In this document: positions 5,790-61,109 of the stretch, piece by piece | Layout: the number at the start of each line of letters is the position of its first letter | Numbering within the stretch: position 1 is the stretch's first letter | Assembly (NCBI RefSeq): GCF_001597735.1 | Contig: NZ_LUTS01000007.1 | Coordinates: forward strand, 124,001-188,000 | Source of the DNA: Neptuniibacter pectenicola | GTDB taxonomy: Bacteria; Pseudomonadota; Gammaproteobacteria; Pseudomonadales; Balneatricaceae | Reading direction: 5' to 3' | DNA: 64,000 nt | Notes under the pieces: model-generated | The model's database searches: none | What the model saw: only the letters and a program-made list of their open reading frames with translations | Told to the model about the DNA's origin: nothing | Program-made: the position numbers and the translations under genes

Positions 5790-6485
5790 TTAGCCCATTA
5801 TTTTTTTTAATGAGGGGCGAAGGCGTGATTTGAAAAAGAGTAGGTGCCAACGTTTACCACCTTTTTGTCGCCAGAGCATGGCACTGCGGATACCTGCGAG
5901 GAGTAAGGCGCGAATTTTTGCCGCATTCTCACTGTTTTGCAGATGCCTTGGGTCTCCTGTTACCTGAATACGGAAGCTAAATGAGCTGATCGTATCTTGA
6001 TAAAGACTTGCGAGGTTAGCAATAACATTAGGGTGGCAGTAGGTGGCTGGCGTTAAGGTAACATCCTGCTCTTCAGCGAGGTTCGCATCGCTGTAATGTT
6101 TGTCAGCGTTGAAGTATTTAGCTTGTTCGGTCACTTGGCTTAAGCGGTGAGCGATGGTTTTTAGCATCTCTGGGTTTGCACTGAGTTTGCGCTCTAAGTG
6201 CACCATGCTGAGGACGTAGCGAATCACATCTTTATTGTGTTCTGCCCGTGGCTTATCTACGATATCTTTTAGGTTTTGTAAGCCTAAATGTAGATTGTAG
6301 GGGAGGTCGGCTGCGCCCCCATAAACATCTTCAGAGCATGCGGGGTCAAGCTGCATAATGCTGTAGATGGATGTTTCAAGGCTGTCCTGTGCAACCATTC
6401 CACGGGTCGCTATCTGCTCGACTAATGCTGCCGCTTGGAAAAGGCCAGCAAGGCCTAGGGTTTGTTCATCATGTTGACGTGACAC
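5790..6485 (-). CDS. hflD: HflD, high-frequency-lysogenisation protein homologue
   Basis: A 231-residue, mostly helical protein that resembles HflD of E. coli (213 residues) in the segments LAGLFQAAALVEQIA, GLQNLKDI, DVIRYVLSMVHLERKL and, near the C-terminus, RHLQNSENAAKIRALLLAGIRSAMLW. In E. coli HflD is a peripheral inner-membrane protein that binds phage lambda CII; its normal housekeeping role is unclear. GTG start at 6485 with an AGAGG site. It sits 10 bp after mnmA, exactly as in enterobacteria. The basic C-terminal tail (KSRLRPSLKKIMG) is slightly longer than usual. Confidence 0.9.
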   Translation of the reverse strand: MSRQHDEQTLGLAGLFQAAALVEQIATRGMVAQDSLETSIYSIMQLDPACSEDVYGGAADLPYNLHLGLQNLKDIVDKPRAEHNKDVIRYVLSMVHLERKLSANPEMLKTIAHRLSQVTEQAKYFNADKHYSDANLAEEQDVTLTPATYCHPNVIANLASLYQDTISSFSFRIQVTGDPRHLQNSENAAKIRALLLAGIRSAMLWRQKGGKRWHLLFFKSRLRPSLKKIMG

Positions 6486-6495
6486 CGTAAACCTC

Positions 6496-7611
6496 TCAAC
6501 TATCTAATGATTCATGCTTGCCAGTATTTTCGATTACGCCGCCGCCAAGGCATATATCCGCGCTATAGATAACAACGGACTGACCTGGTGTCACTGCACG
6601 CTGGGGCTCATCAAATCGGATGAGGTAACCTGAATCGCCATTGCGTTCTATGATGCAGTTTTGATCAGACTGACGGTAGCGCACTTTTGCCTTACAACGG
6701 TAAGGTAGTGGTGGCTCTTCACTATTGATCCAAAAGATCTCATCGGCGGTTAGCCAATCCGTAAATAATAGATCATGTTGTTTACCCTGTACGGCGATCA
6801 GTACATTCCGCTCTAGATCTTTACCCGCTACAAACCACGGCTCTTCTGGGTAATCCTTTAGACCACCAATATGAAGGCCTTGGCGTTGGCCTATGGTGTA
6901 GTACATCAAGCCGGCGTGTTCACCAATTTGATCACCGGCAGGGGTTTCTATCTGACCGGGCTGCGCGGGTAAGTATTGCTTTAGAAAATCACTAAAGCGG
7001 CGCTCACCGATAAAACAGATGCCTGTACTGTCTTTTTTATTATGCGTGACCAGATCGTTAGCTTCTGCGAGCTTTCTTACGTCTGGTTTTTCCAGCTCCC
7101 CAACGGGGAAAAGGGTTTTCTCTATCTCTGGTTGGCCTACCTGATGTAGGAAATAACTTTGATCTTTATTGTTGTCGAGGCCTTTAAGTAAACGGGTTTT
7201 TCCCTCACGTAGACCGCGGCGCACGTAATGACCGGTAGCGATCATGTCTGCGCCTAATTCTATCGCATACTCAAGAAAGGCTTTAAATTTGATTTCACGG
7301 TTACAGAGAATGTCGGGGTTAGGTGTTCGGCCCGCTTTGTACTCTTCAAGGAAATGCTCAAAGACATTATCCCAGTATTCTGCTGCAAAATTGGCGGTGT
7401 GAAGGGGGATGCCTAGCTTATCGCATACAGCTTGGGCGTCCGCTAAGTCATCTTTAGCTGTACAGTATTCTGTGCCGTCATCCTCATCCCAGTTTTTCAT
7501 AAAAAGGCCTTCAACCTGATAACCTTGCTGCAACAGGAGTAGGGCTGAAACGGATGAGTCAACACCGCCGGACATGCCGACGATCACTTTAATCTGGCTA
7601 TGATCAGTCAT
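6496..7611 (-). CDS. mnmA: MnmA, tRNA-specific 2-thiouridylase
   Basis: A 371-residue enzyme that thiolates U34 of tRNA-Lys, -Glu and -Gln. The ATP-binding PP-loop SGGVDSS is at residues 14-20, the catalytic cysteines are in [10 protein letters not shown] (about 103) and [10 protein letters not shown] (about 200), and the central and C-terminal beta-barrel domains follow ([14 protein letters not shown], about 237). Sulfur comes from the Tus relay via IscS in the known system. It is preceded within about a dozen bases by nudJ and followed by hflD, the standard gammaproteobacterial operon. Confidence 0.97.
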
Positions 7612-7623
7612 GAGTGATTTCGA

Positions 7624-8073
7624 TTAGTTACTGTATTCGTGAATGAGTTCTAAGGGGTATTGTTTGCCGGCAATGTAGTCGTCAATGCACTGTAGCACCA
7701 TTGGACAGCGAAGTTTATGCTTATTGAGCGCAACTTCATCACGGGTCATCCAAACGGTTTGAATAATACCGTCATCTAATGGCCTACCTGCATCGTGTTT
7801 AATCGCTTCTGCATAAAAGCAGGCGCGATGGTACGTGATGTTATTATTGCCCGATCGATAGACATAGAAACCGATAAGATAGCTGGGTTTTACATGCCAA
7901 GCAGATTCTTCCAGTGTTTCTCTACATGCGGCTTGAACAAAGGTTTCCCCCTCTTCAATATGACCCGCCGGTTGATTTAATACAACTTCACCGGACGAGT
8001 GCTCTTCTATCAGTAGAAATTTGCCGTCTTTTTCAACAATGACAGCAACGGTGGCATGAGGATACCAATCCAT
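7624..8073 (-). CDS. nudJ: NudJ-type Nudix phosphatase
   Basis: A 149-residue Nudix hydrolase. The Nudix box runs through GHIEEGETFVQAACRETLEE (about residues 38-57) with the catalytic REtlEE core; the usual Gly after EE-x is replaced (EESAW). NudJ acts on thiamin pyrophosphate intermediates and nucleoside di/triphosphates in E. coli. The gene's place immediately upstream of mnmA and its C-terminal YPLELIHE (E. coli YPLEMI) support NudJ over other Nudix enzymes. I choose the second of two tandem ATGs (8073) because the GAGGA site is 5 bases from it; the first would add one Met. Confidence 0.88.
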   Translation of the reverse strand: MDWYPHATVAVIVEKDGKFLLIEEHSSGEVVLNQPAGHIEEGETFVQAACRETLEESAWHVKPSYLIGFYVYRSGNNNITYHRACFYAEAIKHDAGRPLDDGIIQTVWMTRDEVALNKHKLRCPMVLQCIDDYIAGKQYPLELIHEYSN

Positions 8074-40003: not shown

Positions 40004-40030
40004 AGCTTGAATTTGCCTTTGTAACGTATA

Positions 40031-40053
40031 AAGCCACCCGCGGGTGGCTTTTT
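40031..40053 (+). terminator. gap terminator
   Basis: Perfect 20-bp palindrome (AAGCCACCCG and its complement) followed by TTTTT, 27 bp after the gap stop. Confidence 0.88.
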
Positions 40054-51306: not shown

Positions 51307-51767
51307 TGTATTCCCCAAAGATTTTATGGCAGTGCAGCCAAGGGTTTGAACAAAGGCGGCTTGTGGCTGCCTTTCTCCACTATTTCAAACCCGATGGTTG
51401 TAATTTAGTAACAGAATTATACTGAATTCAGCGCGATAGTCATACGTCTGGCCTATGTACTTATGGCTAATGTTGTTGTGTTTTTACAACTTTTTTTACC
51501 TATATTCATGCTGCGATGCAGCATATTTTCGATTGTAGTCGGGTTTCATAATCTATTTAGCTATATACAGTAGCCATTTTTTGTTTTTATGCGCATTGTT
51601 CTTTCGGATTAATAATAAAGAACAAATGTGGGTTAGCGCTCATCTGTTGGGGCGGGTTGTGTCGCGTTAAGGTGAGATATTTTATGATTCAATGCTCTAG
51701 TTATTGATGATAGATTTAATTTAAAAAGACAAAAAGGTAGAATGCTATGATGCATAAAGAGGATAAG
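51307..51767. other. Non-coding stretch upstream of icd
   Basis: No coding frame supported. It contains the icd promoter region (not clearly resolvable), a weak GTTGT/ACAAC hairpin followed by seven T on the plus strand near 51474-51497, and a perfect 7-bp hairpin ATGCTGC/GCAGCAT at 51508-51524. Confidence 0.5.
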
Positions 51768-51920
51768 ATGACTGAATTAGCAGAGAAACCAACGCAACCT
51801 GCGGACTATGCGTGTTGTGAAAGTGGGTGTTCCCCTTGTGTATGGGATACCTATTATGAGGCGCTAGCTGCTTGGAATGCCCAGCAGGCCGCAAGTAAAA
51901 AAGAAACAAAGAGCGAGTGA
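51768..51920 (+). CDS. Very small oxidoreductase-like domain protein
   Basis: A 50-residue protein (MTELAEKPTQPADYACCESG...) with a Cys-rich core CCESGCSPCVWDTYYEALAA at about residues 16-35. This resembles the short oxidoreductase-like domain family (Oxidored-like, PF09791), in which CxxxCxxCVWDxYYEAL is conserved; function unknown, metal or redox chemistry suspected. GAGGA six bases before ATG 51768 fixes the start; an upstream ATG at 51747 would add seven residues. The next small gene starts 7 bp after its stop. Confidence 0.72.
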   Translation: MTELAEKPTQPADYACCESGCSPCVWDTYYEALAAWNAQQAASKKETKSE

Positions 51921-51927
51921 TAAAGTA

Positions 51928-52086
51928 ATGGGAACGGTTGTCGATATGAATGCTTCCCGAGAGAGGGTAAAGCACAAGCGAAAAGAGGAAAAGTTCGACT
52001 CATTGCAAAAGCGGTTTGAAAAGGCGCTACCTACTGATGAACCGGATCCTAAGCAGAAACTGTTAGATTTATTTAAGAAAAAATAG
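51928..52086 (+). CDS. Small basic protein, unknown
   Basis: A 52-residue highly charged protein (MGTVVDMNASRERVKHKRKE... ending DPKQKLLDLFKKK), probably helical, with many Lys/Arg/Glu. No family recognised. The frame opens further upstream, but ATG 51928 sits 7 bp after the preceding small gene and suggests coupled translation. Its basic, helical nature would suit nucleic-acid or ribosome contact, but that is speculation. Confidence 0.5.
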   Translation: MGTVVDMNASRERVKHKRKEEKFDSLQKRFEKALPTDEPDPKQKLLDLFKKK

Positions 52087-52246
52087 TTTTTATTAAAAAC
52101 CACTTTCCGTCGCTGTCGTCCTGATATGCAACGAGTTAGTGATATTCAGCATAGGGGCTTACCGATTGGGCATGGTTGTCTTTTCCGAAACGACTCCTTT
52201 CCTTGTGTTTTTTAGCACCCGCTATTGTTTTAATTGATCCGTACTT

Positions 52247-52642
52247 TTAAGACCCTTTCGATTTTTGTGCACTACATTCCTTGCATTCACCGTATAAAAT
52301 AAGTTCATGATCCTCAACTGTAAAGCCTTCAGGCATGAAGCTTTCGAAGCCGCCAGGGCATAAACGTACCTCAAATACCTGTTCGCAATATCGACATTGG
52401 AAATGATGGTGGTGTGTATGTGTTTTGATCTCGTATCTTGGATTTTGTCCAGGGAGTAAGACGCTTGTAATCAGATTGTTTGCTTGTAGCCCCTTTAAGT
52501 TTCGATAAACCGTGGCTAATGACATCTTAGGCACAATAACGGAGGCTAAATTCAAAATCTCTTGGGCAAGTAGAGGGCGCTTTGCTTCAGTCAGTACTGT
52601 ACGAATAGCCTCATACTGACGGGTTTTACGTTCAATCGTCAT
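52247..52642 (-). CDS. zur: Fur-family metalloregulator, probably Zur
   Basis: A 131-residue Fur-fold repressor: winged helix (about residues 8-75, SLATVYRNLKGLQANNLI as recognition region), then the metal/dimer domain with HTHHHHFQCRYC (about 75-86) and CKEC near the C-terminus (about 121-124), giving the two CxxC pairs of a structural zinc site. The family covers Fur, Zur, PerR and Mur. Assignment as Zur rests on its divergent position from a COG0523 zinc-chaperone gene and the back-up zinc-enzyme genes behind it. Likely autoregulated through the palindrome at 52729-52750. Confidence 0.75.
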   Translation of the reverse strand: MTIERKTRQYEAIRTVLTEAKRPLLAQEILNLASVIVPKMSLATVYRNLKGLQANNLITSVLLPGQNPRYEIKTHTHHHHFQCRYCEQVFEVRLCPGGFESFMPEGFTVEDHELILYGECKECSAQKSKGS

Positions 52643-52716
52643 TTTTTCCTCGAAATCTAGCTAACAATCACTAAGGGATTTAAACAGAGTGTGATTCTGA
52701 CTGCACGAATAAATTC

Positions 52717-52745
52717 TTGTTAATTATTTAATGATAATGCATTAT
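52717..52745 (+). promoter_or_regulatory. Predicted promoter of the zinc-stress operon
   Basis: TTGTTA (52717-52722), 17-bp spacer, CATTAT (52740-52745). The -10 and half the spacer lie inside the palindrome, so repressor binding would block RNA polymerase. Confidence 0.5.
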
Positions 52746-52750
52746 CATTA
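52729..52750. promoter_or_regulatory. 22-bp perfect palindrome, putative Zur/Fur-family operator
   Basis: Half-sites TAATGATAATG and CATTATCATTA meet without a gap, so the dyad is even (TGATAAT-GC-ATTATCA). It lies between the divergent regulator and GTPase genes, 87 bp from the regulator start and 30 bp from the GTPase start. This exact palindrome is not seen elsewhere in the window. Confidence 0.8.
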
Positions 52751-52779
52751 GCAATAAGAGAAGTGAGGAATTAGTCGAG

Positions 52780-54012
52780 ATGAGTTCTGAAAATATTCAA
52801 GAAAAACGCCTTCCTGTTACGGTTATTTCCGGCTTTCTAGGGGCCGGTAAAACAACCTTACTCAATCACATTCTTAATAATCGTGAGGGGCGCCGTGTTG
52901 CTGTCATTGTTAATGATATGTCGGAGGTCAATATTGATGCAGCGCTTGTGAGAGAGGGAGGTGCCGAACTTTCTCGTACTGAAGAAAAGCTTGTAGAGAT
53001 GAGCAATGGATGTATCTGCTGCACATTAAGAGAAGATCTGTTAGATGAGGTCAGCCGTTTAGCTAAGGAGGCGAGGTTTGATTATCTAGTTATTGAATCT
53101 ACCGGTATATCAGAACCTCTACCGGTTGCAGAGACATTTACCTTTGAGGATGAGGGAGGACAAAGTCTTAATCGCATTGCGCAGTTGGATACGATGGTGA
53201 CTGTGGTCGATGCATTTAATTTTTTACGTGATTACAGCTCACAAGACAGTTTACAGATGCGTGGTGAGTCCCTGGGTGATGAAGATCCACGGACGGTAGT
53301 GGACTTATTGATCGAACAGGTAGAGTTCTGCGATGTCATTGTGCTGAATAAAACCGATTTGATTTCAGCTGACGAGCGGGAGCAACTTGATGCCATTCTC
53401 CGTAGTTTGAATACGCGGGCTCGTATTGAGGTGGCTGAGTATGGAAAGGTCCCACTTGAGCAGGTTTTAGGAACGGGGCTCTTTGATTTTGAACAAGCTT
53501 CATTGGCGCCCGGCTGGCTGAAAGAGATGCGTGGTGAGCATGTTCCAGAAACTGAAGAGTACGGTATTAGCGCTTTTTTATATCAAGGGAGACGGCCCTT
53601 TCACCCTTTAAGGTTTAAAAAATGGGTGGAGAGTGAATGGCCGGGCGTTGTGCGTTCTAAAGGCTATTTCTGGTTGGCTTCTAATCCAACTATAGCGGGT
53701 AGTTGGTCACAAGCTGGGGCCGTTGCCCATCATGGCCCTGCGGGGCGTTGGTGGGTATCTGTACCAATTGATGAGTGGCCTGATGATCCCCAAAGCGTTG
53801 TCTTTATACGCCAGAAATGGGATGAGAATGTCGGTGATGCGCGCCAAGAGATCGTATTAATCGGTATGGATATGGATAAGGATGCGCTTTGTGCGGGTTT
53901 TGATGAATGCCTGCTTACAGATGAAGAGATGGCTTGTGGTCCTGATGCTTGGTCAAGTTGGAAAAATCCTTTTATGAGTTGGCCGCAAGGTGAACAGAAT
54001 GCTTATTCCTAA
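52780..54012 (+). CDS. COG0523 G3E-family GTPase, putative zinc metallochaperone
   Basis: A 410-residue G3E GTPase. Walker A is GFLGAGKTT (G18-T26), the metal-binding CxCC is C78-I-C80-C81 in [14 protein letters not shown], Walker B-like [13 protein letters not shown] follows, and the guanine motif is NKTD (about residue 188). The C-terminal CobW_C domain (about 265-390) includes [16 protein letters not shown]0523 proteins with CxCC, including ZigA and the mammalian ZNG1, deliver zinc to client metalloenzymes under starvation. Its place next to a Fur-family regulator and back-up zinc enzymes supports that role. First gene of the cassette; 169 bp separate it from the carbonic anhydrase. Confidence 0.88.
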
Positions 54013-54181
54013 GCACGTCCTATCGCGGGGTTAGCTTATTAAGTGAGGTCGTTTTAGTGGGGCGCTTTGATATGCGGCCTACTATTTATATGGCGTTTAT
54101 TTTATTTCCTCCCTCTTTATGTGGCGATAACAGTATCGTTGTTACGTCATATTTAATTCAAACACTTTTCAGAGAAAAAAT

Positions 54182-54742
54182 ATGATTCGAAAAAATCCCC
54201 GTGGCGATGTACCACAAATACACCCCGATGCTTTTATTGATCCGACAGCGATTATCTGTGGCTTAGTTATCGTTGAAGAAAACGTTTTTATTGGCCCTTA
54301 TGCTGTGATTAGAGCCGACGAGGTTGATGCAAATAATCATATAGAGCCGATCATAATTGGGGCGCATTCTAATATTCAAGATGGGGTTGTGATTCACTCC
54401 AAATCGGGGGCGAAAGTCTCTATAGGGCAACGAACCTCTATTGCTCATCGAGCGATTGTGCACGGGCCTTGTTCTGTAGGAAGCGGTGTATTTATCGGTT
54501 TTAACTCAGTGTTATTTAATTGCACGGTGGAAACAGGTTGTGTGGTTCGGCACAACGCTGTAGTCGATGGGTGCCACCTTCCAGCTGGCTTCTATGTGCG
54601 TTCTACTGAGCGAATAGGTGCAGAAACTGATCTTACTTCTCTACCGCAGGTTTCCGTGGCGGCAAGTGAATTTTCCGAAGATGTCGCACGTACCAATAAT
54701 GAGTTGGTTATGGGTTATAAGCGAATTCAGAACGAGTTTTAA
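54182..54742 (+). CDS. Gamma-class carbonic anhydrase-like hexapeptide-repeat protein
   Basis: A 186-residue left-handed beta-helix protein. The three metal-binding histidines of gamma-carbonic anhydrases can be assigned: H72 (VVIHS), H89 and H94 (AHRAIVH). The gamma class can use Fe2+ or Co2+ as well as Zn2+, so in this setting it plausibly replaces zinc-dependent beta-carbonic anhydrase. It ends three bases before thrS, so the two are co-transcribed. Weak ribosome site. Activity is inferred; some relatives are inactive or act on other substrates. Confidence 0.82.
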   Translation: MIRKNPRGDVPQIHPDAFIDPTAIICGLVIVEENVFIGPYAVIRADEVDANNHIEPIIIGAHSNIQDGVVIHSKSGAKVSIGQRTSIAHRAIVHGPCSVGSGVFIGFNSVLFNCTVETGCVVRHNAVVDGCHLPAGFYVRSTERIGAETDLTSLPQVSVAASEFSEDVARTNNELVMGYKRIQNEF

Positions 54743-54745
54743 TCT

Positions 54746-56737
54746 ATGCAGTCCGTTAATATCACGCTGCCCGATGGGGCAATAAAATGTTTTGATAAAC
54801 CGGTTACCTCTTTGGATGTAGCCTTATCGATTAGCAAAGGCCTTGCTGAGAATGTCATAGCGGCCAAGGTCAATAATAGATTGATGGACCTAAGTGATCC
54901 TATTGATGTTGATGCCGAGGTACAACTGATTACAGTACGCGATGGTGAGGGGGTAGAGATTATCCGTCACTCTTGTGCGCATCTTATAGGTCATGCAGTT
55001 AAGCAGCTTTACCCTTCAGCCCAAATGGTTATTGGGCCTGTGATCGATGATGGCTTTTACTATGATATAGCGTTTGAGCGGCCGTTTACGCCTGAAGATC
55101 TTAATGCTATTGAACAGCGTATGGGTGAACTGATTACTAAACAATATGATGTTGTTAAACGTCGCTTACCTCGTGAAGAGGTTGTAAATATTTTCATGGA
55201 GCGGCAAGAGTCATATAAGCTGCGTCTGATAGAGGATATGCCGGAGGAACACGCTTTTGGCCTCTATTTTCATGAAGAATATATAGATATGTGCCGTGGG
55301 CCACATGTGCCTAATACCCGTTTTTTAAAACACTTTAAGCTGACTAAGTTATCAGGTGCTTATTGGCGCGGCGATGCTAACAACGAGCAGCTCCAGCGTA
55401 TCTATGGTACGGCATGGGCCAATAAAAAAGCACTCTCTGCATATTTGCATCGTATAGAAGCAGCGGAGAAGCGTAATCATCGTAAATTAGGTCGTGAGTT
55501 GGATCTATTCCACTTTCAAGAAGAAGCGCCAGGGGCTGTGTTTTGGCACGCCAAAGGGTGGACGCTCTTTCAGCAGCTTATTGATTATATGCGTTACTGC
55601 CAGCAACAAGCAGGTTACGTTGAGGTGAGTTCACCGGACGTAATGGATAGAGGTTTGTGGGAGCAGTCAGGTCATTGGCAGAACTATCGTGATCACATGT
55701 ACACAACCGAAACTCAAGATGGAAAAGTACTCGCGCTTAAACCGATGAACTGCCCTGGTAGTATTTTGATGTATCGCCACGGGTTTAAAAGCTACCGAGA
55801 TCTGCCCATTCGGATGGGTGAGTTTGGTAAGGTGCATCGCTATGAACCTTCTGGTGCACTTCATGGTTTGTTGCGCGTTAGACACTTTACGCAGGATGAT
55901 GCTCACATCTACTGCACACCTGAACAGGTTAAAGATGAGTGCCAATCTGTTGTGCGACTTGTGTTGGATATCTATAGTCATTTTGGTTTTAACGATATAC
56001 GCATTAAATTGTCTACACGTCCAGAAAACCGTATCGGCACAGATGAAACATGGGACTTTCTTGAAGGTGCATTAACCCAGACCTTAGAGGCGATGGAACT
56101 TGGCTTTCAGGTCAATCAAGGGGAGGGTGCATTTTATGGTCCAAAACTAGAGTTTGTTCTTAGAGATGCTATTGGCCGTGATTGGCAGTGCGGTACGTTG
56201 CAGGTGGATATGAATCTGCCTGAACGCTTTGCATTAGACTATATTGACGAAGAGGGGCAGCGCAAACATCCCATCTTGCTTCACCGAGCTCTATTTGGTT
56301 CTTTAGAGCGCTTTACCGGTATTTTGTTAGAGCATCATGAAGGTAAATTACCCTATTGGTTGGCACCGGTTCAGGTTGTAATTCTGTCGATTACTGATGA
56401 GCATGTAGATTACGCACAAACGGTTGGGCAGTGGTTATCCCTTGAAGGGGTGCGTACTGAAGTGGATAGCCGGAAAGAAAAAATAGGCTATAAAATACGA
56501 GAGAGAACGCTACAGCGCATCCCTTTCATGTTTGTCGTTGGAGCGAAAGAACGCGATACTTGTTCCGTTTCAATACGAAGCCGTGATGACCAAGAGCTAG
56601 GTATTTTCTCGCTTGCTGATGCATTAAGTTTTTTGCGTCGTGAATGCGCTCCGCCTTACCAGGTCGCACAAGAGCAGTTATTAGCGTCACTTCATGAAAC
56701 CTTGCGCTTGGATTCCTCAAGTGAGGCGTTGATATGA
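54746..56737 (+). CDS. thrS: Threonyl-tRNA synthetase, probable zinc-starvation paralogue
   Basis: A full-length 663-residue class II ThrRS: TGS domain (1-60), editing domain with HSCAH (about 75) and CRGPHVP (about 184), catalytic core and anticodon-binding domain from about 540. The zinc ligands that bind threonine are conserved at C336 (MNCPG), H387 (DDAHIYC) and H513 (LLHRA), two residues offset from E. coli C334/H385/H511. It is not linked to infC-rpmI-rplT, the usual housekeeping site, but lies in the cassette, overlapping the dihydroorotase gene by ATGA. I infer it is a second copy with different zinc affinity; whether a housekeeping thrS exists elsewhere is unseen. Confidence 0.9.
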
Positions 56738-58104
56738 AAAGAGCGACCGGACAATCAGAGCGCCTTAATAGCCAGCATGCCGATCTATTGATTTTGGGGG
56801 GTGTGGTTATGACGCCCAATGGTGCTGAACAAGTAGATATCGCAAGTTCCTGCGGGGTTATTGTTGCTTTAGGTGACTTAAAGGGGAGGTGGCAAGCCGA
56901 CAACGTCATAAATGCACAAGGTTTGCATGTGTTGCCAGGCGTGATTGATAGCCAAGTGCATTTCCGCGAACCTGGACTCTCCCATAAAGAAGATATTGAA
57001 AGCGGCTCTCGTGGCGCTGTTTTGGGAGGCGTTACCGGTTTTTTTGAGATGCCAAATACTGACCCGCTCACACTTTGGGATACAGATCTTCAGGCGAAGT
57101 TGGATGCTGCGGAAGCTAAAGCATGGTGCGATTACGCATTTTATATGGGGGGTTCCGCTGTTAATGCCGAGCAGTTAGGTAGGCTAGAAAACCTGCCTGG
57201 ATGTGCAGGTGTGAAAGTATTTATGGGGAGCTCGTTTGGTGATTTGCTGGCTGATGAAGATAAAGTACTACGTAATATCCTATCTCATGGGCACCGCCGT
57301 ATGGCTGTTCATGCAGAAGACGAGGCAAGGCTAATTGATCGTAAGTCGATCGTCGAGGCCAGTGGTAATGTCTGTCAGCATCATGAGTGGCGAGATGTTG
57401 AAAGTGCTTTAAAAGCAACTCAACGTATTGTCGCATTAGCGGAAGAAAGCGGGCGTCGATTACATCTCCTCCATGTATCAACGGCCGATGAGATGCGATT
57501 TCTGGCGCGGCATAAACGCCATGTTACCGTGGAAGTGACCCCGCATCACCTATCTATGGTTGCGCCTGATTGTTATAAAACGCTGGGAAGTTTGGCGCAA
57601 ATGAACCCTCCTATACGTGAGCTAGAGCACCAAGAGGCATTATGGGAAGGTATTCAAAATGGCACAGTGGATGTGATCGGCAGTGATCATGCGCCTCATA
57701 CATTAGAGGAGAAATTAAGGCCTTATCCTCAATCCCCAAGCGGGATGACAGGTGTGCAAACGTTATTACCTTTAATGTTAAATCATCTGCATGAAGGTCG
57801 ATTAACACTTCAGCGGCTGGTGGATTTAACCAGTGCAGGCCCCGCCCGTATTTTTGGTATTACGGGGAAGGGGCGTATAGCGTTAGGTTTTGATGCGGAC
57901 TTAACTTTAGTGGACCTTAATGCTCAACGTATTATTAGTAATGAGTGGATTGCGAGCCGAAGTGGTTGGACGCCTTATCATGGCAAAAAGATTAGGGGTT
58001 GGCCTATTCATACCGTTGTGAGGGGGAAGGTCATTGTAAGAGATGAGGTTTTAGTCGGGGAGCCACAAGGGAAGGCGATGGCGTTTCTTGAGGTAGTAGA
58101 TTAA
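56734..58104 (+). CDS. pyrC: Type I dihydroorotase paralogue with altered metal site
   Basis: A 456-residue amidohydrolase of the type I dihydroorotase group, unlike the ~348-residue type II PyrC usual in gammaproteobacteria. The first metal motif, normally DxHxH, reads [12 protein letters not shown]74 replaces the first His and H76 remains. The bridging Lys (K161 in GVKVFMGSS), H193 (AVHAED), H247 (LLHVST) and catalytic D318 (IGSDHAPH) are kept. It should interconvert carbamoyl-aspartate and dihydroorotate. Loss of one alpha-site ligand suggests operation with fewer or different metals, sensible under zinc shortage. Last gene of the cassette, closed by a strong terminator. Confidence 0.88.
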
Positions 58105-58136: not shown

Positions 58137-58168
58137 AAAAAAAACGGGGCTATTAAGCCCCGTTTTTT
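58137..58168. terminator. Bidirectional terminator between the zinc cassette and rne
   Basis: Stem AAAAAAACGGGGC / GCCCCGTTTTTT with a 6-nt loop and runs of A and T on either side. Confidence 0.92.
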
Positions 58169-58181
58169 ATTTTAAGCGTTT

Positions 58182-61109
58182 CTAGCTATCAGCTTTGCTT
58201 TCTTGGCGCTTACGTAGCTCGCGAGGGTCGTTAGGTGCGCGGCGTGTTCTACGCTTGCGTACGGGGGCTTCCTCTTGAACTTTTGCGCTTTCAGTAACGG
58301 CTTCGCTAGCGGTTTCAGTAGCGGTTTCGCTGGCTGTTTCAGTAACGGCTTCGTTAGCAGTTTCAGCTACGACTTCGTTAGCAGTTTCAGCTACGACTTC
58401 GTTAGCAGTTTCAGCTACGACTTCGTTAGCTGTTTCAGTAACGACTTCGCTGGCTGTCTCAGTAACGGCTTCACTAGCTGTCTCAGGAACGACTTCGTTA
58501 GCAGTTTCAGTAACGGCTTCGCTGGCTGCTTCAGTAACGGCTTCGCTGGCTGCTTCAGTAGCGGCTTCACTAGCTGTTTCAGTAACGGCTTCGTTAGCAG
58601 TTTCAGCTACGACTTCGTTGGCTGTTTCAGTAGCGGCTTCGCTGGCTGCTTCAGTAACGACTTCGTTAGCTGTTTCAGTAGCGGTTTCGTTGTCTGCTTC
58701 AGTAACGACTTCGTTAGCTGTTTCAGTAACGGTTTCGTTAGCAGTTTCAGCTACGGCTTCGCTAGCTGTTTCAGCAACAGCATCGTTAGCAGTTTCAGTA
58801 ACGGCTTCGCTTGCCGCTGTTACGTCAGTGCTAGTCGTGCTTGTATCTTGCAGTGTTTCAGTTACGGACGTGTTTACGTCAGCGGTTTCAGCAGAGTTTG
58901 CTTCTTCGCTTGTACGTTCCGACGTGGCTGTTTGCTGAACGGGGTTTGAGCGTGTTGCTGTGCGTTCAGTAGGGCGACGACGACGACCGCGACGGCGTGG
59001 GTTACGTGGTAACTCTTCGCTATCAGCTGATGCGTTGTTGTTTGTGTTGCGCTCTTCAGTGTTGCGGCTATTATCGCTCGCATCCTGTTCAGATTTACGC
59101 TTACGGCGTCTACGCTTTGGTTTCTCATCAGAAGTCGTTGGTAAAGGCTGATCAGGCTCAGGCTTAACGGTAATGATCTCATCATTTTGTTTTTGCGCGC
59201 CTCTAGGCTTGCGATCATTGTCACGACGACGACGTTTGTTGCGGCCGTTTTCGTTGCGATCACCACGGTCATTATTCCGCTTGCTCTTAGGCTTAGGTGT
59301 TTCTTCTTTTTTCACCGGTGCTTTTGGCTTAGGCTGCTCGGCGCTACCGAAGATATTTTTAATAAATTCGATAATCCGTTCAACGACACCTTGTTCTGCG
59401 GGTGCTTTACCGGCTGCATTTGCAGGCTTGTTTGCCACTGCGTTGTTCGCACTTGCGTTTTGTGTGGCACTGGCCTCTGCAGCAGGTGCTGGAGCTGGTG
59501 TCGATGGCGCAACAGTGCGCACAGCTGCTTGTTCGCGAAGGACGACCGTTTGAGCGGTTGCTGAGGCTTCAATAGGCTCATCGTTCGTTGGTTCTGGCTG
59601 CATTGTGTAGCTTGCATCGTTTGTGGTGGCAACGGTGTTGTCATCACGTAAACGAACGACTTCATAGTGCGGTGTTTCCATATTTGGATTAGGCACAATA
59701 ACAACACGAACGCTTTGACGTACTTCAATATCATGTACAGCGTGGCGTTTTTCGTTAAGTAGGTAAGTGGCAACGGTGACCGGCAGAATCGCTCTAATTT
59801 GTGCGGTTCTGTCTTTGCCTGATTCCTCTTCGATCAATCGTAGGATTGATAGGGCGAGGGATTCAGTGTCGCGTATAGTGCCTTGTCCGCTACAGCGAGG
59901 GCAAACCACGCCGCGAGTTTCAGCAAGAGAAGGGCGTAAACGCTGGCGAGACATTTCAAGTAGACCAAAGCGAGAGATGCGGCCCATTTGTACACGCGCT
60001 CGATCTAACTTAAGTGCATCACGTAAGCGGTTTTCTACTTCGCGTTGGTTTTTAATCGGTGTCATATCGATAAAGTCGATAACAACAAGTCCACCAATAT
60101 CCCTAAGGCGAAGCTGGCGAGCAATTTCGTCTGCGGCTTCAAGGTTGGTTTGTACTGCGGTTTCTTCAATATCGCCGCCACGGGTTGCGCGTGCAGAGTT
60201 GATATCAATAGAAACTAGGGCTTCTGTTGGATCGATAACGATTGAGCCGCCAGAGGGTAGTGTGACTTCCCGTTGGAATGCCGTTTCAATTTGCGCTTCA
60301 ATCTGGAATCGGTTGAATAGAGGCGTTTGCTCTGCGTAAAGACGGATTTTGCTTTCGTAGGTTGGCATAACCTGTTTTACAAAGTTACGCGCATCTTCGA
60401 ATACTTCGGGATCATCAATCAGTACTTCGCCAATATCTGAGCGAAGGTAATCACGTACCGCACGAATAACAACATTGCTTTCTTGGTAGATTAAGAAAGG
60501 TGCTGATTTTTCGTCGGATGCTTGGGTGATCGCTGTCCAAAGGGTTTTTAAGTATTCAAAATCCCATTGAAGCTCTTCACTGCTGCGGCCAACGCCAGCA
60601 GTACGCACGATGATGCCCATCTGTTTAGGTACATTAACACCAGCAAGCGCTTCTTTAAGTTGTGTGCGCTCATCACCTTCGATGCGACGGGAGATACCGC
60701 CAGCTCTAGGGTTATTTGGCATTAAAACTAAATAACGACCGGCTAGGCTAATAAAGGTTGTGAGTGCAGCGCCTTTGTTGCCGCGCTCCTCTTTATCAAC
60801 CTGAACAATAACTTCAGTGCCTTCTCTCAATACTTCTTTAATGCTTGGGCGAGAACCGCGGCTTGGTGGCTGCGTGAAGTACTCTTTAGAGATCTCTTTT
60901 AGTGGTAGGAAACCATGACGTTCTGATCCGTAGTCAACGAATGCAGCTTCAAGGCTGGGCTCGATACGTGTGATCTTGCCTTTATATATGTTGGCTTTTT
61001 TCTGTTCACGTGATCCAGATTCAATATCTAGGTCATACAGGCGCTGTCCATCAACCAGCGCTACGCGCAACTCTTCAGGTTGAGTTGCGTTGATAAGCAT
61101 TCTTTTCAT
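58182..61109 (-). CDS. rne: Ribonuclease E
   Basis: A 975-residue endoribonuclease and degradosome scaffold. The catalytic half starts [20 protein letters not shown] and has the S1 domain (about 35-120), DNase I-like active site around [20 protein letters not shown] (Asp about 303) and [12 protein letters not shown] (Asp about 346), and the Zn-link CPRCSGQG (about 404-411). The C-terminal half is disordered: proline/alanine linker, arginine-rich RNA-binding blocks ([20 protein letters not shown]), then 22 acidic octapeptide repeats, and a basic end with APNDPREL, the NDPR motif also found in Pseudomonas. Leader described separately. Confidence 0.96.
58287..58814 (-). repeat. 22 tandem 24-bp repeats in the rne C-terminal region
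   Basis: Encodes residues about 766-941 of RNase E as 22 consecutive octapeptides of the form A-[SN]-E-x-[VA]-x-E-[TA]. Some adjacent units are identical in protein (three ANEVVAET in a row), others vary at positions 2, 4 and 6, implying expansion by slippage or recombination. Confidence 0.95.

Follow-up and report, generated by a model that had tools for sequence, protein, structure and literature searches.

Which regulator governs a zinc-sparing operon in a genome that encodes its Zur protein elsewhere? This question is raised by a locus of Neptuniibacter pectenicola contained in a stretch of 64,000 nucleotides that was analysed as a whole (contig NZ_LUTS01000007.1, positions 124,001 to 188,000; hereafter referred to as the window). 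Here, a gene for a Fur-family protein, designated furL, is divergent from the gene order zigA-gCA-thrS2-pyrQ, which encodes a COG0523 metallochaperone (ZigA), a gamma-class carbonic anhydrase (gCA), a second threonyl-tRNA synthetase (ThrRS) and a dihydroorotase. Open reading frames (ORFs) and family models agree with an earlier note on this DNA regarding this five-gene layout. In passages of the literature (PMC2770081, PMC6103462, PMC8000910), COG0523, Cam, PyrC2, ThrRS or FolE2 paralogues are placed under Zur. In contrast to the earlier note, which had taken the regulator as part of the known pattern of zinc-regulated COG0523 clusters, where Zur is the regulator, we found that this protein is another member of the Fur family, with a putative operator of its own, and that Zur is encoded elsewhere in the genome. 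Our analysis suggests that the zinc-sparing operon is probably controlled by a dedicated Fur-family repressor other than Zur.

The genome of the window harbors three Fur-family genes. One of these, on contig C149, is transcribed divergently from znuA, for which the genome has no second match, and lies beside znuC and znuB. Among NCBIfam models it fits Zur best (114.8 bits, under the cut-off of 167), and by context it is the Zur protein of this genome. FurL likewise belongs to the Fur superfamily, as indicated by PF01475, by the CxxC...CxxC arrangement with four cysteines in all eight FurL proteins of the family, and by the Fur fold of its structure model (pLDDT 86). It shares 21.4% identity with this Zur and 27.2% with the Fur protein of the same genome, and no Zur model of NCBIfam was matched at E<=1e-3; weak Zur matches were obtained for two further FurL proteins (21.5 bits in G382 and 19.4 bits in G420). 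In a tree of 37 rows, including 11 Zur, 10 Fur and 8 FurL proteins as well as outside relatives, the Zur rows form one group and the Fur rows another (both 100/99), with FurL outside both. FurL and most outside relatives are located on a third side of the tree, and one relative, L113, groups with Zur. The Zur of the window's genome is assigned by its adjacency to znuA, the other Zur rows by likeness. The column of the Zur sensor is occupied by cysteine (GC or AC) in 11/11 Zur rows and by tyrosine or phenylalanine (RYE or RFE) in 8/8 FurL proteins. As described in a passage on E. coli Zur, the substitution C88S of the sensor residue Cys88 abolishes regulation (PMC4219657); FurL shares with this protein the Fur fold and the Cys4 structural zinc site, but has no counterpart of Cys88, and its operator differs. 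Taken together, FurL has neither the sensor cysteine nor the tree grouping of Zur, nor a GTTATANTATAAC-type operator at its target, and as judged by its sequence it is a lineage distinct from the Zur and the Fur of the genome.

The gap between furL and zigA contains a perfect palindrome of 22 bp as a candidate operator; one other perfect palindrome of this length, which is GC-rich, is present in the window (40030-40051). Only one exact copy of the 16-bp core TGATAATNNATTATCA is present in the 3.63-Mb genome, namely in this gap. The core pattern was set on the window, then found unchanged in G331 and G382, and then sought in the remaining genomes encoding FurL. Four of the eight FurL gaps contain the core exactly (G000, G331, G442 and G382) and four with one mismatch, where the palindrome is imperfect. 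Likewise, TAATGATAAYNNATTATCATTA is present in 8/8 gaps, in one of them with a single base different, and a looser box, TGATAANNNNTTATCA, composed after inspection of these sites, matches seven gaps exactly and G460 with one mismatch. An equally good match to TGATAANNNNTTATCA was obtained in at most 0.3% of 300 mononucleotide shuffles per gap, and in an alignment of seven gaps the palindrome is the main block across all three genera carrying FurL. By eye, TTGTTA (TTGTCA in G442, G382 and G460) is located 17 bp before CATTAT inside the palindrome; together they make up a weak promoter-like pair in front of zigA or folE2, which in G460 is altered by the one base difference of this genome or nearby. 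The sole match of a promoter scan lies beside the palindrome on the furL strand (52723-52694), at chance level.

Additional core sites were sought in the genome of the window. Since 24 sites with up to two mismatches were obtained as compared to 14 for a reversed control pattern, these sites are mostly chance matches. A wider FurL regulon in this genome was considered and rejected: the four one-mismatch sites are all located inside ORFs, as are the two sites inspected among the 19 with two mismatches.

FurL is encoded by 8 of the 116 genomes of the family (E<=1e-10), which comprise three of the 11 members listed for the genus of the window, two members of a second genus (64-66% identity) and three of a third (44-47%). 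In the order, FurL-like proteins were found in 4/390 genomes (E<=1e-12); the fourth match, in G084, is 39% identical and devoid of a FurL-type site. Genus g60 carries gCA in five genomes, and none of the four FurL matches of the order is among them. Three Fur-family genes, including separate Fur and Zur, are present in 8/8 FurL genomes, and G258, a member of the window's genus lacking FurL, contains two Fur-family genes and no gCA match at E<=1e-30. In all seven genomes with enough flanking sequence (the contig of G419 is cut), FurL is divergent from a zinc-sparing operon with variable cargo: zigA-gCA-thrS2-pyrQ in G000, G331 and G442, folE2-pyrQ in G382 and G460, where a TonB receptor gene is convergent, and gCA-pyrQ in G420 and G421. 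The FolE2 assignment reached 307 bits (cut-off 215). The four-gene order of the window was met only in three genomes of its genus and looks rare; the comparison covered 16 gCA-bearing stretches, of which only G331 shows this order, and G442 was obtained by the family-wide FurL search. The same parts occur in other orders among zigA loci, e.g., in Psychrobacter (L054) and Halomonas (L111).

The Zur box, GTTATANTATAAC, is present at 9/9 zur loci (those of the eight FurL bearers and of G258), in one case inside an overlong ORF call, and no FurL box was found within two mismatches at the eight zur stretches scanned. Conversely, no Zur box was detected within two mismatches in 8/8 FurL gaps, the nearest being a site with three mismatches in G382. 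A second operator was sought in the zigA-gCA gap, yielding neither a FurL box nor a Zur box. With the consensus derived from the zur loci, the cassette is therefore without the candidate upstream Zur site expected for clusters of the type described by Haas. For loci lacking FurL, the best 80 of 590 zigA relatives were taken, 77 of which had enough upstream sequence, and 300 bp were scanned. A Zur box (<=2 mismatches) was present upstream of 33/77 zigA genes as compared to 19/1540 mononucleotide shuffles, and a FurL box (<=1 mismatch) upstream of 0/77. Moreover, two genomes of the order without FurL, G273 (zigA-folE2-gCA) and G178 (folE2-gCA-thrS2-pyrQ), contain an upstream Zur box with one mismatch each. 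Because Zur boxes are found in FurL-less genomes and the FurL palindrome in the bearers, operons of the same type apparently answer to Zur in some genomes and to FurL in others.

Several observations weigh against a dedicated zinc-responsive repressor. FurL does not form one closed group in the tree but needs two changes, the third side being poorly resolved. The consensus promoter scan listed no promoter for zigA, which was placed by eye. The other 44 of the 77 FurL-less zigA genes are without a Zur box as well, though zigA need not head its operon, and a one-mismatch FurL core is present in a FurL-less zigA locus of Chitinibacter tainanensis (L101, 5245-5260), about 2.7 kb from zigA. The palindrome resembles the A/T-rich Fur box, so that Fur might bind to it, and the best NCBIfam models for FurL are those of PerR, at 55.6 bits far under the cut-off of 180. 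In addition, the wider FurL-like group is not everywhere tied to zinc. Its members neighbor a TonB 'siderophore' receptor gene in two Comamonas, a heme oxygenase gene in Leptospira and, by eye, an amidase-like gene in G084, and in Eleftheria the gene after the FurL-like one carries the annotation of ribonuclease Z, an enzyme that depends on metal. In 0/5 of these relatives was a palindrome of the FurL type found beside the regulator gene.

Near-palindromes of other sequence are located downstream of the gene in G084 and upstream of that in Leptospira. The Eleftheria gene, on a 784-kb plasmid of Eleftheria terrae (L162, 6001-7635), is the closest relative of FurL in the plasmid collection searched (49.6%). 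In a metagenome-assembled genome of the Chthoniobacterales (L115, 6419-12083), a 36% FurL-like gene is divergent from a DsrE-like gene, a DUF1826 gene and zigA; hisI and another COG0523 gene are located further on. No palindrome was found at this locus by the scan used; it is a possible independent case.

Could FurL then sense iron, manganese or peroxide in the manner of Fur or PerR, with the cassette answering that stress and zinc being secondary? The PerR scores, the resemblance of the operator to the Fur box and the heme and siderophore genes adjoining the wider relatives point in this direction, as does Foldseek, which returned Fur-family proteins as top matches for FurL, the first two being Fur and the third the zinc regulator FurB. 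FurL also has in common with PerR, Mur and Fur the fold, with a Cys4 site as in PerR, and presumably an A/T-rich palindromic box. However, we consider this explanation unlikely, given the zinc-sparing cargo at 7/7 readable FurL loci of the family and the composition of the ligand columns. The N-domain histidine found in 10/10 Fur proteins of the same genomes is replaced by Pro23 in 8/8 FurL proteins, and position 79 is His in 8/8 FurL as compared to Asp in 10/10 Fur; the HDH motif of Fur is absent. Positions 80 and 91, which we take, together with position 23, to be PerR-type ligand positions, vary within FurL (Tyr in 2/8 and Thr in 3/8, respectively); by its score and these ligand positions FurL falls outside PerR. 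Instead, His77, His78, His79, Cys95 within a CPG motif, His112 and the four structural cysteines are invariant in 8/8 FurL proteins. His79, Cys95 and His112 are kept in 6/8 outside rows, and no residue is aligned to Cys95, an extra cysteine in comparison with Fur, in any Fur or Zur row.

As judged from this alignment, the metal site of FurL is possibly His3Cys (His77/His79/Cys95/His112), the corresponding ligand set in Fur proteins such as H. pylori Fur presumably being His/Asp/Glu/His. The cargo and the unusual ligand set suggest that zinc may be the signal of FurL. A more far-reaching proposal is tentative: FurL might represent an undescribed branch of Fur-family sensors that binds zinc at His3Cys and has TGATAAY-NN-ATTATCA as its recognition sequence, regulator and operator forming a portable unit that has taken the place of Zur at zinc-sparing operons.

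Somewhat less likely still than an iron-, manganese- or peroxide-sensing FurL is the possibility that the cassette simply belongs to the Zur regulon, repressed by Zur as in Pseudomonas, and that FurL is incidental or a duplicate Zur. The one-mismatch Zur boxes at the same cargo in G273 and G178 would fit this explanation, and passages of the literature describe Zur regulation of the same cargo types (PMC2770081, PMC6103462). It is at odds with the lack of a Zur box (<=2 mismatches) in the FurL gaps and in the zigA-gCA gap, with the conserved non-Zur palindrome and with the low identity of FurL to Zur and its missing sensor cysteine. The passages on the clusters of Haas 2009 (PMC2770081) describe a similar combination, i.e., COG0523 with gamma-class Cam, PyrC and ThrRS paralogues, for which Zur, acting at its box, is the predicted regulator, whereas the locus studied here has a distinct Fur-family protein and palindrome, with Zur at znu. 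Correspondingly, the cargo types resemble can, pyrC2, folE2 and yciC of the P. aeruginosa Zur regulon, which in the passage concerned are regulated by Zur (PMC6103462). Where 'two Zur' is mentioned in the passages, the phrase refers to a pair of binding sites or boxes, or to two genes regulated by Zur. A non-Zur Fur-family regulator of such cassettes was not recognised in a literature search, most subscription papers being outside its reach.

With regard to the zinc-sparing operon under FurL, which we favor, the 3.63-Mb genome, with a listed completeness of 100, was searched for other copies of the cargo genes. It contains another thrS (C1:378524; 52% identical to thrS2), a dimeric pyrC (C112:409007; TIGR00856, 473 bits, cut-off 293), a gene for a distant PyrC-like protein (28% identity) and two beta-carbonic anhydrase genes elsewhere. 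Because of these genes, thrS2, pyrQ and gCA of the cassette are extra copies, as the earlier note had assumed for its back-up enzymes; the condition by which that note would have been refuted, a genome without any further thrS or pyrC, thus does not hold. The idea that they are housekeeping copies clustered by accident is refuted at the sequence level by the separate thrS, pyrC and carbonic anhydrase genes and, as the module also recurs and nothing was found in favor of this idea, retains hardly any probability. The locus thus combines a COG0523 gene with paralogues of zinc enzymes that are also encoded elsewhere in the genome, which corresponds to the zinc-sparing cassette of the Haas type; the clustering of COG0523 with such paralogues was, as previously stated, already known, according to passages of Haas 2009 (PMC2770081).

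The family assignments of zigA, thrS2 and the dihydroorotase are firm, as they exceed curated NCBIfam cut-offs, and ZigA in addition contains the CxCC motif (GCICC) of COG0523. The gCA protein is below every NCBIfam cut-off; among solved structures, its best matches belong to gamma-class carbonic anhydrases and CcmM-type proteins, and the histidines of the class, which we take to be ligand positions, are aligned and kept. PyrQ carries Gln at the position of the first His in the HxH metal motif, as does 2gwn, its nearest solved relative. In ThrS2, the motifs NCP, DDAH and LHRA still contain one Cys and two His residues, presumably the zinc ligands of ThrRS, and editing-site motifs are also present. 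As the three expected zinc ligands are kept, a zinc-free replacement, which had been claimed for tRNA charging, is unsupported for ThrS2. The same pattern is described in passages of Haas 2009, with altered metal ligands in the PyrC paralogue and zinc ligands kept in ThrRS paralogues, where the extra copy number was proposed as the possible point (PMC2770081). Besides zigA, the genome has two COG0523 genes, one of which lies, by eye, within a cobalamin cluster and the other next to an SCO1-like gene.

Regarding ThrS2 homologues elsewhere, that of L142 (G178:C23, 8597-10554) spans two reading frames and may be broken or mis-sequenced. The paralogues of L154 (G049, 5877-7778) and of Psychrobacter L054 (2395-4197) lack the His/Cys motifs that we take to belong to the editing domain; these motifs are kept by the window's ThrS2 and by the housekeeping ThrS.

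The features of the locus are compiled in the table below. The short gaps and overlaps described earlier apply to gCA-thrS2 (gap of 3 bp) and thrS2-pyrQ (overlap of 4 bp), but not to zigA and gCA, which are 169 bp apart. Likewise, the strong terminator is borne out by a hairpin 3′ of pyrQ (-19.9 kcal/mol, z -6.6), but this hairpin is not among the output of a consensus terminator scanner. The convergent gene beyond it reads, by eye, as rne. The GC content of the cassette (45.4%) is close to that of the window (46.0%).

Table. Coordinates in the window of the furL locus, its candidate operator and adjoining elements.
Feature	Position	Strand	Evidence and remarks
furL, Fur-family regulator	52247..52642	-	131 aa; PF01475 67.4 bits (cut-off 23); NCBIfam, tree, ligand columns
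Candidate FurL operator, perfect 22-bp palindrome TAATGATAATGCATTATCATTA	52729..52750	strandless	furL-zigA gap; palindrome scan
zigA, COG0523 zinc metallochaperone GTPase	52780..54012	+	410 aa; NF038288 682.6 bits (cut-off 600); GCICC
zigA-gCA gap, 169 bp	54013..54181	strandless	no FurL box, Zur box or + strand terminator in scans
gCA, gamma-class carbonic anhydrase	54182..54742	+	aligned gamma-class structures
thrS2, second threonyl-tRNA synthetase	54746..56737	+	TIGR00418 712 bits (cut-off 384)
pyrQ, pyrC2/pyrQ-type dihydroorotase	56734..58104	+	NF006559 704 bits (cut-off 482)
Intrinsic-terminator-like hairpin	58139..58168	+	folding; common to pyrQ end and convergent rne-like gene

Two small ORFs on the + strand adjoin furL (window about 51747-52087), the first of which is, by eye, cysteine-rich (CCESGCSPCVWD). 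The C-terminus of the rne-like gene (window 58260-58950) contains a long run of degenerate ETANEAV/ETASEAV repeats.

Based on these data, the following mechanism can be envisaged for FurL as the repressor of the operon. When zinc is sufficient, metal-loaded FurL dimers on the palindrome (52729-52750) would hold down the operon, and via the shared gap FurL probably represses furL itself, as a dimer at this site would cover or touch both putative promoters. When the metal is scarce, FurL would be released and the operon derepressed. ZigA would then direct scarce zinc to its clients, gamma-carbonic anhydrase and PyrQ would take over from the zinc-dependent beta-carbonic anhydrase and PyrC, and ThrS2 would back up ThrS. 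Import by ZnuABC would be under the separate control of the classical Zur, acting at a box of its own. The binding and repression by FurL, the positions of the promoters and the zinc induction of the cassette are here inferred from the DNA.

The kind of zinc-sparing cassette described here is already known; the private regulator and operator are the new part. In the usual account one sensor, Zur, runs import and enzyme replacement together, whereas here the two tasks seem to be divided between two sensors, each with a different operator. For annotation, this implies that a position next to COG0523 is not sufficient to name a Fur-family gene Zur. If confirmed, the FurL loci would provide a natural test of why a cell should set separate thresholds for zinc import and zinc sparing, an example of one type of cargo controlled by different regulators and perhaps a second chemistry of metal sensing within the Fur fold. 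If the more far-reaching proposal on FurL is true, its bearers would have two zinc thresholds, with Zur responsible for import and FurL for enzyme replacement.

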